DNA of 64,000 bases from Pseudoponticoccus marisrubri (lineage in GTDB: Bacteria > Pseudomonadota > Alphaproteobacteria > Rhodobacterales > Rhodobacteraceae). The stretch is from the NCBI RefSeq assembly GCF_001482405.1, contig NZ_LPXO01000015.1, forward strand, positions 1 to 64,000, given 5' to 3'. The notes under the pieces were generated by a model. That model had not been told where the DNA came from. It saw only the letters and a list, made by a program, of their open reading frames with translations, and did no database searches. The position numbers were made by a program, and so were the translations under genes. Positions 800-8,099 of this stretch are shown one piece after another (the stretch's first letter is position 1; each line of letters starts with the position of its first letter).

Positions 800-1573
800 C
801 TACTCCCACGGAGTGAGCCCGTCGAGGCTCGAATGTGGGCGTTGGTGATTGTAGTCGGCGCGCCATGCCGCAATCATGCGGCAGGCATGGCGCAGAGACG
901 GGAACAGGTGTTCGTTCAGGCACTCCTCGCGCATTCTTCCGTTGAAGCTTTCCACCAGACCGTTCTGCATGGGTTTGCCAGGCGCGATGTGGTGCCAACC
1001 GACCTTTCGGTCTTCCTGCCATTTGAGCATCGCGTTCGATGTCAGTTCCGTCCCGTTGTCCGAGACCACCATGCAGGGGTAGCCTCGCAGTTCTGCAATC
1101 CGATCCAGTTCTCGGGCGACACGCGCGCCGCCGATGGATGTATCCACCACGGCGGCCAGGCATTCCCGGCTGAAGTCATCAATGACGTTCAGCACACGGA
1201 ACCTGCGCCCGTCTTCCAGCGCATCGGACATGAAGTCGAGCGACCATCTCTGGTTCGGTCCTTGCGGGATCGCCATCGGCGTCCTGGTGCCCACAGCGCG
1301 CTTGCGTCCGCCGCGTTTACGAACGGTTAACCCTTTTTCGCGGTAGAGCCGGTACAGCTTCTTCCAGTTCACATGCCACCCCTCGCGCTTCAAAAGGATG
1401 TGCAGACGCCGATAGCCAAACCGCCGCCGTTCAGACGCCAATTCCTTCATCCTGACCCGCAGCTCAGTATCCGCCGGACGCTTCGATGCCCGCCGGTAAA
1501 CCCGCGGATCAATCCCCGCCAGAGCACAGGCGCGACGCTGCGAATACCTCTTCTCTTTCATGGCGCAGTCCAC
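800..1573 (-). CDS. IS3-family transposase orfB (rve integrase domain), premature stop
   Basis: The frame shows the HTH_21-like segment [18 protein letters not shown] and then the DDE core: [10 protein letters not shown] (first D), VVSDNGTEL (second D) and [18 protein letters not shown] (E). Translation in cells is expected as an OrfAB fusion after a -1 shift; the frame is open upstream of GTG 1573 as far as the slippery site at 1603-1609. It stops at TAG (800-802) after GLTPWE. The same frame continues with HQRSREDQNLNSANL to TAA at 752-754, the tail expected for the family. The TAG is therefore probably a nonsense mutation that removes the last 15 residues; whether the enzyme still works is unknown. 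Confidence 0.88.
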
Positions 1574-1596
1574 GGCATTCCGCCTCGAACCGGGCC

Positions 1597-1863
1597 TCAG
1601 AAGTTTTTTCCAAGCATCTCTTTAAGCGTCACCACATCCATCATCTGCTCGGCCAGCATCCTCTTCAGCTTGGCGTTCTCAGTTTCCAGCGTCTTCAGCC
1701 GCCGCGCGTCGGAAACCTCCATGCCGCCATACTTCGACCGCCACTTGTAGAAGGTCGCGTCGCTGATCCCGTGCTTGCGGCACAGCTCCTTCGCGCCCAG
1801 CCCGGCCTGATGCTCCTTCAAAATCCCAATGATCTGTTCTTCGCTGAAACGGCTTCTCTTCAT
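1597..1863 (-). CDS. IS3-family transposase orfA (helix-turn-helix)
   Basis: This 88-residue protein starts [19 protein letters not shown], has the HTH segment [19 protein letters not shown], and ends with a leucine-zipper-like stretch [18 protein letters not shown]. It is the DNA-binding and multimerising subunit that recognises the element ends. The start at 1863 is chosen because GAGGAG precedes it by seven bases. The slippery heptamer A AAA AAC at 1609-1603 is in the right phase just before its stop, so OrfAB fusion by -1 frameshift is expected. Confidence 0.9.
1603..1609 (-). other. A_AAA_AAC slippery heptamer for OrfA-OrfB frameshift
   Basis: On the minus strand the codons GGA AAA AAC TTC TGA end orfA. 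The X_XXY_YYZ heptamer A AAA AAC is in the correct phase, and a -1 slip continues into [20 protein letters not shown], which leads directly into orfB. Confidence 0.7.
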
Positions 1864-2130
1864 CGTCTGTCTCCTCAATTGGAGAACAGGCTAACCAAAA
1901 TTCGAGGACATTTCTGGGGAGCAGGTCAATACGCGCCTGCATCCCCGGCCGAAAGCAACGCAAGACACCGGTGAAACATGACAAGCGGCGGAACCGCATC
2001 GAGATCATGTTCGGCAGGCTCAAAGACTGGAGGCGCGTCGCGACCCGCTATGACCGATGCCCCAAAGTCTTTCTCTCGGCCATCGCCCTCGCGGCCATCG
2101 TCATCTACTGGTTATGAATCCTGACCCTAG

Positions 2131-2622: not shown

Positions 2623-3738
2623 TTACATCGGCGGCGGGGGCGGGGGCATGACGGTGAAGAGCTGTGCCAGTTCCGAGACCTGGCCCGCCTTCTTCCAGCC
2701 GTCCTGGCCTTGCGTCCAGACATAGGTCTCGCGGGTCAGCTCGCCGCTGCTGGCCATGCGGCCCAGATCGGCGCGCGAGAAGGGGCCGCGGGTCTGGCCG
2801 TTCTCGGCCAGGTGCCAGACATGCTCGACCGGGGGCGGGGGCGGCGGGGCGGCGGCCGCCGCCTGCGGCTGTTGGGGGGCGGCGCCCCAGGGGCCCTGCT
2901 GGCCCATCGCGTTGGCCATCTGCATGCCCATGCCGGCGCCGAAGCCCATGCCCATGGACTGGTCCATCGCGCCGCCCTGGCCCATGGCCTCGGCCGCCTT
3001 CCACTTCATGTGGTCGTCGAGATTGCCCGCCAGCCCGCGCGAGGTGCGCGCATCCAGCGCCTTCTCGACCTCGGGCGGCAGCGAGATGTTCTCGATGTAG
3101 AGCTCGGGCAGCTCCAGCCCGTATTGCCGGATCACCGGGTCGATCGCCTTGGCGATCAGCTGGCCCACGTCGCCTGTGTTGGCCGCCATGTCCAGCACCG
3201 GGATGCCGCTTTTCGCGATGTCCTTCGAGAATTCCTGCACGATGATGTTGCGGATCTGGAAGCTGATCTCGTCCATCGTGAACTCGCCATCGGTGCCCAC
3301 GATCTCGGACAGGAACAGCGCCGGGTCCGCCACCTTGACCGAATAGGTGCCGAAGGCCCGGATGCGCACCGGCCCGAATTCCGGGTCGCGCAGCATGATC
3401 GGGTTCTTGGTGCCCCATTTGAGGTTGGTGAACCGGTTTGTGTTGACGAAATAGACCTCGGACTTGAAGGGCGACTGGAAGCCGTGATCCCAGTGCTGCA
3501 ACGAGGTCATGATCGGCATGTTGTTGGTCTCGAGCATGTAGAGCCCGGGCGTGAACACGTCGGCCAGCTGGCCCTCATGCACGAAGACGGCGGCCTGCCC
3601 CTCGCGCACGGTCAGCTTGGCGCCGTACTTGATCTCGTGGCCCTCGCGCTGGAAACGCCAGACCATGGTGTCGCGGGTGTCGTCGGTCCAGTGGATGACG
3701 TCGATGAACTGGCCCGACAGGAAATCCCAAATGCCCAT
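2623..3738 (-). CDS. SPFH-domain protein with C-terminal GYF_2 domain (virion-core/YdjI-like)
   Basis: The protein has 371 residues. Residues about 20-235 form an SPFH/stomatin-type domain, with REGQAAVFVHEGQLADVFTP near the start and the helical LISK-like part (QLIAKAIDPVIRQYGLELPE) near 200. A Gly/Met/Gln/Ala/Pro-rich linker spans about 250-303. A GYF_2 (DUF4339) domain occupies about 307-358, seen as VWHLAENGQTRGPF and WTQGQDGWKKAG, and the chain ends in PPPPPPM. There is no signal peptide or clear membrane segment. SPFH proteins scaffold membrane microdomains; the GYF-like domain suggests binding of proline-rich partners, and its own tail is a candidate ligand. It is the last gene of the minus-strand TelA/XpaC run. 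Confidence 0.85.
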   Translation of the reverse strand: MGIWDFLSGQFIDVIHWTDDTRDTMVWRFQREGHEIKYGAKLTVREGQAAVFVHEGQLADVFTPGLYMLETNNMPIMTSLQHWDHGFQSPFKSEVYFVNTNRFTNLKWGTKNPIMLRDPEFGPVRIRAFGTYSVKVADPALFLSEIVGTDGEFTMDEISFQIRNIIVQEFSKDIAKSGIPVLDMAANTGDVGQLIAKAIDPVIRQYGLELPELYIENISLPPEVEKALDARTSRGLAGNLDDHMKWKAAEAMGQGGAMDQSMGMGFGAGMGMQMANAMGQQGPWGAAPQQPQAAAAAPPPPPPVEHVWHLAENGQTRGPFSRADLGRMASSGELTRETYVWTQGQDGWKKAGQVSELAQLFTVMPPPPPPM

Positions 3739-3755
3739 CCGAATACTCCCTTGAT

Positions 3756-4763
3756 TTAACTCGGCCCGTCCGAGCCGGTCAGCTCGGCGGCCCTGGCCTG
3801 GACGATGGGCAGCGCCTGTTCGGCGCGCATGCCCGGGGTCAGCCGCGGATCGTAGAGGATCTTCAGCAGCATCTCGTCATGCGTCGTCAGCAGCGCGAAC
3901 TCGTCATCGTCGTTGAAGATCGAGGGCCGCGCGCGCGGGTCGTCATTGCCCAGCCCCATGCCCTGCGCCACCTCCTCGTGGATGCAGGAGCGGCGCAGCA
4001 GCTCGGGATGCTCCGAGCGGATAACCGCGATCGCGGTGCCGTAGGAATAGCCGCCCGGCGTGTCCGAGAAGGCGACGACAAGGCAATGGATCGAGCGCGG
4101 CAGGTTGTTGAAGATGCGCAGGGCCGACGGGTTCACGTCCGGCACGATCTGCTGGATGCGCGGCGCGATGCGGTCGCTGTCATCCTCGCTCATGAACAGG
4201 ACGTGGAAATTGGGGTCGCTGTCCGTCATGGTGATCGGGTGGCCGGTGACCCGCGCCAGCCGCGCGGCAAAGGACGAGACCTGCGCGCGGTCGAAGGCGT
4301 GCTGGTCCTCGGGCACGCGCGGGCCGAACTCGACCGTCATGCGCACCGGCTGCAGCCATTTCTTGATCGCGCTGGCCGCCCCGCCCGAGGGGCGCAGCCC
4401 CTCGCCGCGGACATATTCCTCCTCCAGAGCGATGGCGGCGAAGTTGCGCACCAGCATCGTGTCGGTGAAGGCCGTGTCGGGGCCGCCGCCATCGGTGCGC
4501 AGCAGACCGCGGGCCAGCAGGTCATTCTGGACGCGGGCGTAGTACTGCGCAAGCGCCTGGCTGGCGGCCGAGGGCTCGGGCGCGGCCGGCTGGGCCGGCA
4601 TCGCCGCGGGCTGCGGCGCGGGCGCCGGGGCCAGCGTGGCGGGACGCGCCTGCGGCTTGACCCCGCTCGTGCGCGGGGCCAGCGCCGAGGTCTCGCAGCC
4701 CGCAAGGGCCGCGACGACACCAAGAGCCGCCAGCGTGGCGGCAAGCCTGCCCCGACGCAGCAT
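3756..4763 (-). CDS. DUF2927 lipoprotein
   Basis: The 335-residue product has a signal peptide with lipobox ALAGC (Cys-23), so it should be a lipoprotein on the periplasmic face. A Pro/Ala-rich linker (about 30-65) follows, then a DUF2927 domain. The domain carries a conserved CIHEEVAQGMGLGND block (His-262, Glu-263, Glu-264), reminiscent of a metallopeptidase HExx motif, and IFNDDDEFALLTTHDE. No enzymatic activity is established for the family as far as I know. It lies 2 bases after the telA stop and just upstream of the SPFH gene, so co-transcription is very likely. Confidence 0.85.
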   Translation of the reverse strand: MLRRGRLAATLAALGVVAALAGCETSALAPRTSGVKPQARPATLAPAPAPQPAAMPAQPAAPEPSAASQALAQYYARVQNDLLARGLLRTDGGGPDTAFTDTMLVRNFAAIALEEEYVRGEGLRPSGGAASAIKKWLQPVRMTVEFGPRVPEDQHAFDRAQVSSFAARLARVTGHPITMTDSDPNFHVLFMSEDDSDRIAPRIQQIVPDVNPSALRIFNNLPRSIHCLVVAFSDTPGGYSYGTAIAVIRSEHPELLRRSCIHEEVAQGMGLGNDDPRARPSIFNDDDEFALLTTHDEMLLKILYDPRLTPGMRAEQALPIVQARAAELTGSDGPS

Positions 4764-4765
4764 GA

Positions 4766-5962
4766 TCAGCGCGGGACCGAGGTGGCGGCCACGTCGCCGG
4801 TGCCGCTGCGCCGCGACTTGGCGGCGGCCAGCGTCTCGCGCAGTTCCTTCTCCATGGTCTGGAGCTCTTCCTCGGCCTTGGCGCGGCGCGCCTTGCCCTC
4901 GTCGGCGATCTGCAGGCTGTCCTGGATGGTGGCGACCAGGTCGGCATTGGCCTGCTTGACGGCCTCGATGTCGAACACGCCGCGCTCCATCTCCTCGCGG
5001 ATCATCTTGTTGCTGTCGCGCAGGTTGGCCGCGTTCGAGGTCAGCAGCTCGTTGGTCAGGTCATTGGCATCGCGCACCGCCGCCGCCGCCTGCTTGGAGC
5101 GCTGCAGCGTGACCGCCTGGGCCAGCTGCGTCTCCCAGAGCGGGACGGTATTGACGAGGGTCGAGTTGATCTTGGTGACCAGCGACTTGTCGTTCTCCTG
5201 CACCAGCCGGATCGAGGGCAGGGACTGCATGGTCACCTGCCGCGTCAGCTTGAGGTCATGCACCCGGCGTTCCAGGTCGTCGCGCGCGGCGCGCAGGTCG
5301 CGCAGCTCCTGCGCCTTCATCACCTGGTCCCCCTCGGGCGCGGCGTTGACCTCGGCCTCCTTGGCGGGGATCTCGGTGTTGTCGAGCTCTTCCAGCTTCT
5401 CCTCGCCGGCCGCGATGTACAGCGCCAGCTCGTCGTAGAACTGCAGCGTCTTCTCGTAGAGCATGTCCAGAGACTTGATGTCCTTCAGCAGCGTGTGCTC
5501 ATGCTTGAGAAGGTCGTCGGTGATCTTGTCGATCTGCGCCTGCACGGTCTCGTAGCGGGCGGTGAACTTGGCGAAGGGCGCGGCGCGGCCCAAGAGCTTT
5601 TCCCACCACGAGCGTTCGCGGCGCACGTCCAGCTCCGAGACCGAGAAGCCGCGGATCGTGGTGACCATGTTGCGCAGCCCGTCACCCGCCGGGCCCACAT
5701 CCTTGTTGCGCACATCGGCCAGCATGGCCTGGCTGATCTCCTGCAGCTCGGCCTGCGCGGCGGAGCCGAAGGACACGATGGAGTTCGTGTCGCGCATGTC
5801 GATCTCGTCCATGCGGGTGCGGATCTCCTCGCCGACCGGGGCGTCGGCCTCCTTCAGGTGCACGATGGCATTGGCGTCGCGCGGCTCGGGCAGAACCACC
5901 GCGTTCACCTCGTCGACCAGGGTCACTGCCTTCTCGGCTTCTTGGCGTACATTCTCAGACAT
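4766..5962 (-). CDS. telA: TelA/KlaA-family toxic anion resistance protein
   Basis: The product has 398 residues and matches the TelA family (PF05816 type) throughout: TRMDEIDMRDTNSIVSFGS near the N-terminus, WWEKLLGRAAPFAKF centrally, then long helices with DDLLKHEHTLLKDIKSLD and LRLV/LVTKINSTLVNTVPLWE. It is predicted to be cytoplasmic and mostly coiled coil, with no membrane segments. Members are linked genetically to tellurite or toxic anion resistance and to antimicrobial tolerance, but the mechanism is not known. The neighbouring XpaC gene is a known partner in many genomes. The start follows gggggct with weak ribosome-site character. Confidence 0.9.
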   Translation of the reverse strand: MSENVRQEAEKAVTLVDEVNAVVLPEPRDANAIVHLKEADAPVGEEIRTRMDEIDMRDTNSIVSFGSAAQAELQEISQAMLADVRNKDVGPAGDGLRNMVTTIRGFSVSELDVRRERSWWEKLLGRAAPFAKFTARYETVQAQIDKITDDLLKHEHTLLKDIKSLDMLYEKTLQFYDELALYIAAGEEKLEELDNTEIPAKEAEVNAAPEGDQVMKAQELRDLRAARDDLERRVHDLKLTRQVTMQSLPSIRLVQENDKSLVTKINSTLVNTVPLWETQLAQAVTLQRSKQAAAAVRDANDLTNELLTSNAANLRDSNKMIREEMERGVFDIEAVKQANADLVATIQDSLQIADEGKARRAKAEEELQTMEKELRETLAAAKSRRSGTGDVAATSVPR

Positions 5963-5985
5963 GGGGGCTCCCGCATTAAATCACT

Positions 5986-6876
5986 TCATCGCGTGTCGAG
6001 ACGGACACCTTCGCGCTGCAGACGCTCGCGCAGTACCTCGATCTCGACGGTCAGATCGGCATTGTTGTCCAGCAACAGCCTGTCGATCTTCTTGTCAAAG
6101 CTCTCTTCCAGATCGGTCAACAGCATCATGAAATCGCTGCGCGCATCGCGGTCGCGTTTGCGCGCGTAGACATCGGAAAACTTCACCGCCGCATCCCGGG
6201 CGCCCATCAGGTAGACGCCAAGGAATTTCTTGGCCGCCGTCAGGTCGCGGGGATCCTCTTCGACCGTGCGGATCATCTCGCGCACCTTGCCGGCAAAGCG
6301 CTCGACCCGGGCCTCGACCTGCCGGTCGCCGGCACGTTTCACCGCGTCCGTCATGTCGGCCAGGTGTTTCTCGGCCTCGTCCACCACCCGGGCGACGCGG
6401 TCCTGCTGGAAGGTGTCGATCCCCTCCATCCCCTTGTCCTTCATCGGATCGAGGCCGAAGGCGCCGAGGTGCAGCGCGGTCGCGGCGCCGCCGAAGATCA
6501 GCGGTGCGACCAGCCCGGGCTCGGACCGCCAGGCGGCGATCGCGGCGCCGATCCCGGTCAGCACGGCGGCAAACAGCTTGCGCGGGATGCCCGGACGGCG
6601 CGCCACCTTGCGCGCGTCATAGGCGGCCTGCGCCTTCAGCCCGTCGCGCAGCAGCCAGGCGCCCAGCAGCAGCGCGCCCGCGCCGCCCAGTCCCGCGGCG
6701 AGGCCCACGGCACCGTCATTCAGCGACAGCGCGGCCAGCACGATGGGCGGGATGAAAAGCAGGTTCGAGCGTGCACCGACCGGCGTCACCGTCGCACCCG
6801 CATAGGCCGGGCGGTCGCCGGGCTCCGGGCCGCTTTCGCCGTCGGGGCTGTACTTGCCGCCATAGCGCTGCGCCAT
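5986..6876 (-). CDS. XpaC-family (5-bromo-4-chloroindolyl phosphate hydrolysis) membrane protein
   Basis: The product has 296 residues. The N-terminal half holds hydrophobic segments at about 38-56, 60-76 and 100-140. The C-terminal half (about 160-290) is charged and helical. The family signatures AYDARKVARRPGIPRK and GAFGLDPMKDKG are shared with the second XpaC-like gene at 7050-7904, so the two are paralogues. The family name comes from a Bacillus phenotype and is not an established activity. It starts 2 bases after the stop of a 29-codon ORF and is followed 23 bases later by telA. Confidence 0.85.
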   Translation of the reverse strand: MAQRYGGKYSPDGESGPEPGDRPAYAGATVTPVGARSNLLFIPPIVLAALSLNDGAVGLAAGLGGAGALLLGAWLLRDGLKAQAAYDARKVARRPGIPRKLFAAVLTGIGAAIAAWRSEPGLVAPLIFGGAATALHLGAFGLDPMKDKGMEGIDTFQQDRVARVVDEAEKHLADMTDAVKRAGDRQVEARVERFAGKVREMIRTVEEDPRDLTAAKKFLGVYLMGARDAAVKFSDVYARKRDRDARSDFMMLLTDLEESFDKKIDRLLLDNNADLTVEIEVLRERLQREGVRLDTR

Positions 6877-6878
6877 GC

Positions 6879-6968
6879 CTAGAGCCCCCCGAGCCAGCCG
6901 GTCGCCACCCCGAACAGGAGCACGATCAACAGCACGTAGCTCACCTTCTGCAAGGCGTTTCCGGACAT
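6879..6968 (-). CDS. 29-residue single-pass membrane peptide
   Basis: A short frame, ATG at 6968 to TAG at 6881-6879, encodes MSGNALQKVSYVLLIVLLFG and then VATGWLGGL. It has a short polar N-terminus and one hydrophobic segment of about 18 residues. GGGGGAGCC precedes the ATG as a plausible ribosome site, and its stop is 2 bases before the XpaC start, so translational coupling is likely. It is recognised only from position, composition and coupling; no family was identified. Confidence 0.6.
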   Translation of the reverse strand: MSGNALQKVSYVLLIVLLFGVATGWLGGL

Positions 6969-7049
6969 GGCTCCCCCGCGCTCTGCTTACGCCGCAGAAC
7001 TTAAGGGCAAATTGCTGCGCTTGCTAGGGGGAACCCGCGGCGAGGGGCG

Positions 7050-7904
7050 TCAGGCAGCGGATTCGCGCGGCATGCGCTCCAGCAGGAAGTCCGCCTCCAT
7101 GTCGAACACGTCGCGGCCGCCGCGCAGCCCGTGCCGCCGGGCGCGTTCCTCGAAGCTTTCGGCCATCACGTCCAGCTTGGCGACGAAGCGACGGCGGGCA
7201 AAGCGGAAATCCTCGCGCCTTGCGGCGTCCTCCAGCCGCGCGGTCTCGGTTTCCAGCATTTCGGCGAAGCGGGTCACCGGCTTGAGGATGCGGGCCCGCT
7301 CTTCGGGCGTGTGGCCGATGCTGCGCATGCAGCGCAGCACCATGGCGCGGGTCGCCTCGCTGCGCCGGGTCAGGTCGGCATCCTGCAGGGCGGCAATGCG
7401 GTCGGTCAGTTCGACCAGCACATCCTCCAGCCGGGCCTGCGCGGCCTCGACCTCCAGCGCGGCGGAATTGACGGGCTGTTGTTCGCCCTTGTCGCGCAGC
7501 GGGTCCGGCCCGAAGGCCGCAAGGCTCAGCGCCATGCCCGTCAGGCCCATCAGCAGCGGCGGCATCAGCGTGGCGAACTGGTGCCCGGCCAGGATCAGCA
7601 CCATCACCCCGATCAGGGCCGAGCCCAGGATCTTGCGCGGCAGGCGCGGGCGCCGGGCGACCGGCGCGGCGTCATAGGCTTGGTGCAGCCGGTGGCCATG
7701 CGCGATCAGCCGCAGACCGATAGAGAAGATCCACAGCGCCATCAGCGCCGTGGCCACCCCGGCGAACGAGCCGCGGAACAGCCAGAGCAGCAGCGGGAAG
7801 GCCGCCAGGAACAGGATGTTGAGCCAGGAATCGAAGGCCGCGTCATCGGGCGCGGTCGTTGCGGTCCGGGCACGCCTGTCCTTGGGGATCATGAGGGCCT
7901 CCAC
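7050..7904 (-). CDS. Second XpaC-like membrane protein
   Basis: The 284-residue product shares the XpaC signatures of its neighbour: AYDAAPVARRPRLPRK and AAFGPDPLRDKG. Three to four hydrophobic segments lie at about 25-45, 50-68, 95-112 and 115-130, followed by a helical, charge-rich C-terminal half. A GTG at 7904 touches the upstream stop; an ATG at 7892 (MIPKDRRA) is an alternative start. It diverges strongly from the 296-residue paralogue in the C-terminal half, so the pair may form a heteromer. This is inferred. Confidence 0.8.
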   Translation of the reverse strand: MEALMIPKDRRARTATTAPDDAAFDSWLNILFLAAFPLLLWLFRGSFAGVATALMALWIFSIGLRLIAHGHRLHQAYDAAPVARRPRLPRKILGSALIGVMVLILAGHQFATLMPPLLMGLTGMALSLAAFGPDPLRDKGEQQPVNSAALEVEAAQARLEDVLVELTDRIAALQDADLTRRSEATRAMVLRCMRSIGHTPEERARILKPVTRFAEMLETETARLEDAARREDFRFARRRFVAKLDVMAESFEERARRHGLRGGRDVFDMEADFLLERMPRESAA

Positions 7905-8099
7905 CTAGAGATAGCTGAGCAGGAAGATCATCGCCCAGAGCGCCAGGAAGGCCGCGCGCTGCGGCAGCCGATGATCGGCCCGTGCCCGGGCCGCGCATCC
8001 GGCGAGCGCGTCATAGGTGTCGCGCGCGATCCCGGGCAGCTGGCTGAGCACCAGGACCGAGGTCAACAGAATCGTGGCAAGGGCGATGAGGGATGTCAT
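7905..8099 (-). CDS. Small membrane protein, first gene of the XpaC/TelA run
   Basis: The 64-residue product begins MTSLIALATILLTSVLVLSQ and ends FLALWAMIFLLSYL, giving two hydrophobic segments separated by a basic loop with two His. Its stop directly abuts the GTG of the second XpaC-like gene, as expected for an operon. No family was recognised. It opens the minus-strand run that continues to 2623, and the 139 bases upstream (8100-8238) are the likely promoter region. Confidence 0.6.
   Translation of the reverse strand: MTSLIALATILLTSVLVLSQLPGIARDTYDALAGCAARARADHRLPQRAAFLALWAMIFLLSYL

Follow-up and report, generated by a model that had tools for sequence, protein, structure and literature searches.

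A conserved Rhodobacteraceae operon joins XpaC-TelA with a YdjI/YdjG-type SPFH scaffold and may serve envelope maintenance

The analysed window is a 64,000-nucleotide (nt) stretch of Pseudoponticoccus marisrubri DNA, which forms the left edge of contig C15 in a 4.56-Mb genome. At positions 2623-8099 it carries seven genes around telA that a sequence-only reading had described as one TelA/XpaC/SPFH module. All seven open reading frames (ORFs) proved to be real, at the expected positions and every one on the minus strand. They are listed here in the direction of transcription, together with a promoter-like element and an IS3 element (aa, amino acids; TM, transmembrane; the main evidence is given in brackets).

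7905-8099, minus strand: small membrane protein of 64 aa with two hydrophobic segments, optional, putative paralogue of the 29-aa peptide (profile, co-occurrence with XpaC2)
7050-7892, minus strand: XpaC2, a divergent second XpaC, with an alternative GTG start at 7904 (hydropathy, BLASTP, tree)
6998-7033, minus strand: promoter-like element TTCCCCCTAGCA-N16-CYTARNTT (motif counts, position weight matrix)
6879-6968, minus strand: single-TM peptide of 29 aa, gene 1 of the conserved operon (codon-position bias, 53/61 loci)
5986-6876, minus strand: XpaC1, PF10112 (Pfam, hydropathy)
4766-5962, minus strand: TelA, PF05816, cytosolic, all-helical or coiled coil (Pfam, AlphaFold2)
3756-4763, minus strand: DUF2927 lipoprotein with the lipobox LAGC at residues 20-23 (Pfam, model, motif)
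2623-3738, minus strand: SPFH (Band_7_1) and GYF_2 protein with a poly-proline C-terminus (Pfam)
800-1878, minus strand: IS3-family element, OrfA with HTH_Tnp_1 and OrfB with rve, on the contig-edge side, where relatives carry the zinc-ribbon gene ZnR (Pfam)

Pfam searches assigned Band_7_1 (335.8 bits, E 1e-100) and GYF_2 (77.3 bits, E 7.5e-22) to the SPFH protein, both above the Pfam cut-off, and DUF2927 (E 2e-59) to the lipoprotein. TelA matched PF05816 over residues 50-379 (367.7 bits, cut-off 30, E 6.6e-110) and XpaC1 matched PF10112 (Halogen_Hydrol/XpaC; 80.9 bits, cut-off 29.8, E 1.6e-22); XpaC2 and the 64-aa and 29-aa proteins were left without a Pfam family. The touching or nearly touching gene ends described earlier were confirmed: 2 nt separate the 29-aa gene from xpaC1 and telA from the DUF2927 gene, and the remaining gaps measure about 12-23 nt, except that xpaC2 and the 29-aa gene lie 81 nt apart.

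TelA was found in 89 of 100 Rhodobacteraceae genera. About 17 kb around it from 60 genera were searched with iterated profiles, which gave 61 loci including the window, one per genus. XpaC was present in 60 of the 61 loci, SPFH and DUF2927 in 56 each and the 29-aa gene in 53. A further gene, ZnR, which is absent from the window, was detected in 55 of the 60 other loci; it has about 360 codons, lies after SPFH in the same orientation and encodes a pair of zinc ribbons with a TM segment at the C-terminus. The 64-aa gene and xpaC2 occurred in only 8 of the 60 sampled genera, always as a pair that immediately precedes the 29-aa gene. A second sample of 80 named SPFH loci, gathered by another route and sharing part of its species with the first, showed the order 29-aa/XpaC/TelA/DUF2927/SPFH/ZnR at 65 loci and the same core order with 64-aa/XpaC2 in front at a further 7, most of the others being cut by contig ends. 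The conserved Rhodobacteraceae unit hence comprises six genes: 29-aa TM peptide, XpaC, TelA, DUF2927 lipoprotein, SPFH-GYF and ZnR. The operon is real, conserved and uncharacterised, and its seven-gene form with two XpaC proteins is a lineage-specific elaboration. Of the module read from the sequence, five of the seven genes are kept together (in about 53-60 of 61 loci); the gene-neighbourhood survey does not bear out the full set of seven, because 64-aa/XpaC2 is a lineage-specific, optional duplication, and the sixth conserved gene lies outside the window. We therefore rejected an obligate seven-gene unit.

The genes of the unit are also lost together. Eleven genomes of the family lack TelA, and neither a full-length SPFH protein (0/11) nor an XpaC above the Pfam cut-off (0/11) was found in them. 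Among 288 other genomes of the class, 11 of the 12 with a full-length Band_7_1 SPFH protein have TelA (Fisher p 4e-14, relatedness uncorrected); outside Rhodobacteraceae the count is 8 of 9 (p 1e-10, again uncorrected). Neighbouring XpaC, TelA and SPFH genes without DUF2927 were seen in several other alphaproteobacterial families. In one TelA-less genome (G088, L117:8333-8719) DUF2927 adjoins a short ORF which resembles only the cytosolic part of XpaC2 and has no TM segments. TelA/Ter-type genes have been linked in the literature to stress and phage-conflict operons, and the genes could in principle form a phage-defence or conflict system with a membrane-stress sensor at its base. PADLOC returned no match and the operon is near-universal in the family rather than confined to patchy islands, which makes a defence function very improbable.

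A search of the same genome located ZnR at C1:353077-354141, with 77% identity to the copy of a relative. Its usual downstream neighbours pfkB and dtd are also found downstream of the C1 copy. Since ZnR is missing from the window and present on C1 with its usual neighbours, the operon is split in this genome. The IS3 element beyond SPFH in the window may have caused the split; a misassembly could also make the operon appear divided. A further transposase-like fragment without a Pfam match lies at about 1920-2120, at the contig edge past the operon end. In other loci (L040, L042, L048, L051, L054, L060, L067 and others) a gene for a cytochrome b561-like membrane protein recurs between SPFH and ZnR. 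The relocated ZnR gene, the promoter-like element inside the gene series and the predicted fold of DUF2927 described below all go beyond the sequence-only reading.

The second XpaC had been proposed from the sequence, and its homology was confirmed. XpaC2 did not match PF10112 at E values up to 1, yet BLASTP aligned it with XpaC1 (29% identity, E 4e-22), and the XpaC2 sequences form one clade (support 99) nested with long branches in the family XpaC tree; it is thus a divergent paralogue and not a member by model. Hydropathy predicted four N-terminal TM segments and a helical cytosolic domain for XpaC2, and an N-terminal hydrophobic region followed by a cytosolic helical domain for XpaC1. A profile of nine 64-aa proteins, searched against about 19,600 ORFs, retrieved ORFs of the 29-aa gene as its first 17 non-training matches, mostly through the C-terminal TM segment and with weak single E-values (3e-4 to about 2). 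The clade and the profile matches together make a tandem duplication of the 29-aa/XpaC pair the best reading of how 64-aa/XpaC2 arose. Judged by its substitutions, which number 98/44/230 at codon positions 1, 2 and 3 (23 disjoint pairs, p 9e-33), the 29-aa gene is clearly under protein-coding selection. A conserved membrane gene that is easily overlooked in annotation is thereby established. Outside Rhodobacteraceae, the search for small TM peptides upstream of XpaC gave one weak candidate only (L101). The genome of the window also contains a weak PF10112 match below the cut-off at C24:33167-33742 (L115; E 5.8e-6).

In the gap behind xpaC2 lies the promoter-like element, 29 nt ahead of the 29-aa gene. 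With up to two mismatches it was found in 42 of 126 loci, and reversed or shuffled controls never came below six mismatches. Whole-genome scans detected a match with 0-1 mismatch only at the operon copy, which is the sole match in the genome of the window; a scan of the region for the sigma-70 consensus revealed nothing. The element looks like a dedicated promoter for the operon led by the 29-aa gene. Because of its position the seven genes need not share one transcript, and two transcription units may stand side by side, 64-aa/XpaC2 alone and the 29-aa-led operon under its own promoter. The genome-unique element, the 81-nt gap and the fact that in most genera the operon begins with the 29-aa gene speak for such an arrangement. 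All genes are on the same strand, however, a terminator-like site was not found between xpaC2 and the 29-aa gene, and the 64-aa/XpaC2 pair, where present, is always found immediately ahead of the operon, so read-through is possible. We consider two units a serious possibility, slightly short of an even chance; they concern transcription and are compatible with the functional explanation favoured below.

Of the proteins encoded by the conserved operon, the SPFH protein keeps its poly-proline C-terminal tail in 134 of 136 orthologues. Its GYF domain matched that of GltJ/AgmX (PDB 7z3c) with E 0.0095, and both are GYF domains within membrane-complex proteins. GltJ lacks an SPFH domain and serves gliding motility. 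The AlphaFold2 model of TelA is helical (mean predicted local distance difference test score, pLDDT, 68). A PspA-like fold is not claimed for it, as its PDB matches were to coiled coils only, none at E <= 0.001.

The AlphaFold2 model of DUF2927 (pLDDT 88) matched the catalytic domains of matrix metalloproteinases (MMPs) with a Foldseek E of 6e-4, and superposed on MMP-7 over 149 residues at 2.8 Å (VIA Z 11.8). A sequence-profile search against the PDB returned no MMP, so the relation is one of fold. On this model DUF2927 is predicted to have a metzincin-like fold, which gives the family an assigned, albeit predicted, fold. Unlike metzincins such as MMP-7 and karilysin, the zinc motif HExxHxxGxxH/D was present in none of 133 DUF2927 orthologues, 131 of which have EExxQxxGxxND in its place. 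By the register of the motif, rather than by structural alignment, E263, Q267 and N273 would correspond to the three zinc histidines. With the zinc ligands replaced by a conserved alternative, DUF2927 is probably not an ordinary protease; it probably functions in binding or sensing, or is an enzyme whose site differs. The HEExxQ pattern is also kept by two longer DUF2927 paralogues (L113, L118). The genome of the window has two more DUF2927 genes, on C3 (L113) and C23 (L114), the C3 protein carrying a long C-terminal extension.

In Bacillus, a YdjI/YdjG/YdjH gene set has been described with PspA, YdjG being a TM protein with a double zinc ribbon (PMC11237479). In B. subtilis, membrane localisation of PspA depends on YdjI together with YdjG/YdjH (PMC8581546). 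As a stand-in for B. subtilis YdjG we used the Enterococcus SPFH-ZnR-TPM set, in which the gene flanked by the SPFH and TPM genes was matched by nearly the entire ZnR profile (E 4e-49); SPFH-ZnR pairs were also found in Vibrio, Comamonas and Tsukamurella. SPFH and ZnR are homologous to the YdjI/YdjG scaffold, with a Band_7_1 SPFH protein encoded beside a double-zinc-ribbon TM protein in an envelope setting in both. The partners differ: B. subtilis has PspA and YdjH, and the operon here has TelA and XpaC, adds DUF2927 and small TM peptides, and extends the SPFH protein by GYF_2 and a poly-proline tail. PspA is not encoded in the window operon (one gene lies elsewhere, on contig C11), and TPM/YdjH (PF04536) had no match in the whole genome. 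Across the family, PspA occurs in only 24 of the 100 genera, against 89 for TelA. Adjoining XpaC and TelA genes are known from Bacillus xpaC-yaaN and Listeria lmo1966-lmo1967; there they are two genes, whereas here they are joined to SPFH-ZnR, DUF2927 and the 29-aa peptide, and a subclade has an additional XpaC. The B. subtilis operons xpaC-yaaN and pspA-ydjGHI are separate and both belong to the sigma-W regulon (PMC3498285), so the Rhodobacteraceae operon joins two envelope-stress units that are separate in Bacillus. The text of a 2024 survey of phage shock protein (Psp) systems mentions neither TelA nor XpaC. The earlier statement that none of the parts has a known mechanism was too strong, given the role of B. 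subtilis YdjI, to whose family the SPFH protein belongs, in bringing PspA to the membrane, and the sigma-W control shared by the two B. subtilis operons.

TelA and XpaC are widely annotated as tellurite resistance proteins, and the operon might accordingly protect against tellurite or other oxyanions, TelA and XpaC limiting uptake or toxicity with the help of the other genes. The family name, a historical label, points this way, and PMC6955997, citing O'Gara 1997, counts R. sphaeroides telA among chromosomal tellurite-resistance elements. A core-like operon in 89 of 100 genera is nevertheless ill-suited to a specialised metalloid function, and the SPFH-ZnR partners belong to membrane-stress systems. 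The conserved set contains no reductase, methyltransferase or transporter gene, and a TerC-family neighbour occurs at only 11 loci. In Listeria, according to PMC12791056 citing Collins 2010, a mutant of the telA homologue was affected more for nisin (4-fold more sensitive) than for tellurite (2-fold). Both the near-universal presence and the partner genes favour a general role in envelope maintenance over tellurite resistance, which we regard as unlikely.

The homology of ZnR, the role of YdjI, the union in one operon of two units that B. subtilis keeps apart, the position of PspA outside it and the lack of TPM lead us to propose, from gene content, that XpaC with its small peptide stands in for YdjH, and TelA for PspA, on the SPFH-ZnR platform. 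We thus favour an envelope-maintenance operon of the Rhodobacteraceae that unites XpaC-TelA with a YdjI/YdjG-type SPFH-ZnR pair, DUF2927 and the 29-aa peptide and works in four steps, a reading on which our confidence is evenly balanced. In step 1, XpaC and the small TM peptide would dock the helical cytosolic TelA at the inner membrane. In step 2, SPFH-GYF would oligomerise at the membrane on the ZnR TM protein and draw TelA/XpaC to sites of membrane damage or stress, as YdjI/G/H recruit PspA, the helical cytosolic partner in B. subtilis; the conserved poly-proline tails of adjacent subunits may be ligands of the GYF domain. DUF2927 would act as a ligand- or peptide-binding sensor on the periplasmic side (step 3), and the duplicated 64-aa/XpaC2 pair would supply a second membrane anchor (step 4). 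Gene content, co-conservation, homologies, the duplication and the predicted DUF2927 fold were computed here; steps 1-3, and in step 4 the function as an anchor, are what we infer.

Several observations weigh against this reading. A strict single complex is weakened by ZnR acting from a separate locus in this genome and by the module-type DUF2927 retained in 4 of the 11 TelA-less genomes. On large Paracoccus plasmids such as P. ferrooxidans pFER4 (L218), TelA, DUF2927, SPFH and ZnR occur with XpaC undetectable, an arrangement that may be informative, and in many bacteria SPFH and TelA/XpaC are found separately. The low-confidence TelA model gave no specific PspA- or ESCRT-like match, and self-binding between GYF and poly-proline is a guess from motif conservation. 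Of the earlier claim of one envelope complex, the five-gene co-conservation and the joint loss with TelA back a module that reaches from the periplasm through the inner membrane to the cytosol, but it does not include all seven genes. A bolder version is doubtful: in a family that mostly lacks PspA, TelA would be the functional counterpart of the PspA/ESCRT-III membrane-repair polymer, the catalytically rebuilt metzincin-fold lipoprotein its periplasmic sensor, and the 29-aa peptide an obligate partner of XpaC, the joint duplication of the two having made the second anchor.

The strongest rival to envelope maintenance places a flotillin-like SPFH-ZnR scaffold at the centre of membrane-protein or lipid-domain quality control, independent of acute stress; TelA/XpaC would serve as a chaperone in the cytosol, and DUF2927 would bind substrates in the periplasm. 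Proteases are commonly scaffolded by SPFH proteins, which favours this view, but the operon is without a protease gene, which counts against it. The SPFH-ZnR pair is kept without TelA across phyla, and deletion of ydjI lowers membrane fluidity (PMC8581546), both of which suit a scaffold function; within Rhodobacteraceae, however, loss of TelA and loss of SPFH coincide, and we rate quality control as possible but tentative. For the widespread TelA and XpaC, annotated until now without a mechanism, the operon shared with a YdjI/YdjG scaffold gives the favoured envelope-maintenance reading a concrete mechanism, testable in genetically tractable roseobacters.

A full Rhodobacteraceae module was also found in record JAFKDC010000001.1 (L133), which carries the actinobacterial name 'Enemella evansiae' in a title that is probably wrong.

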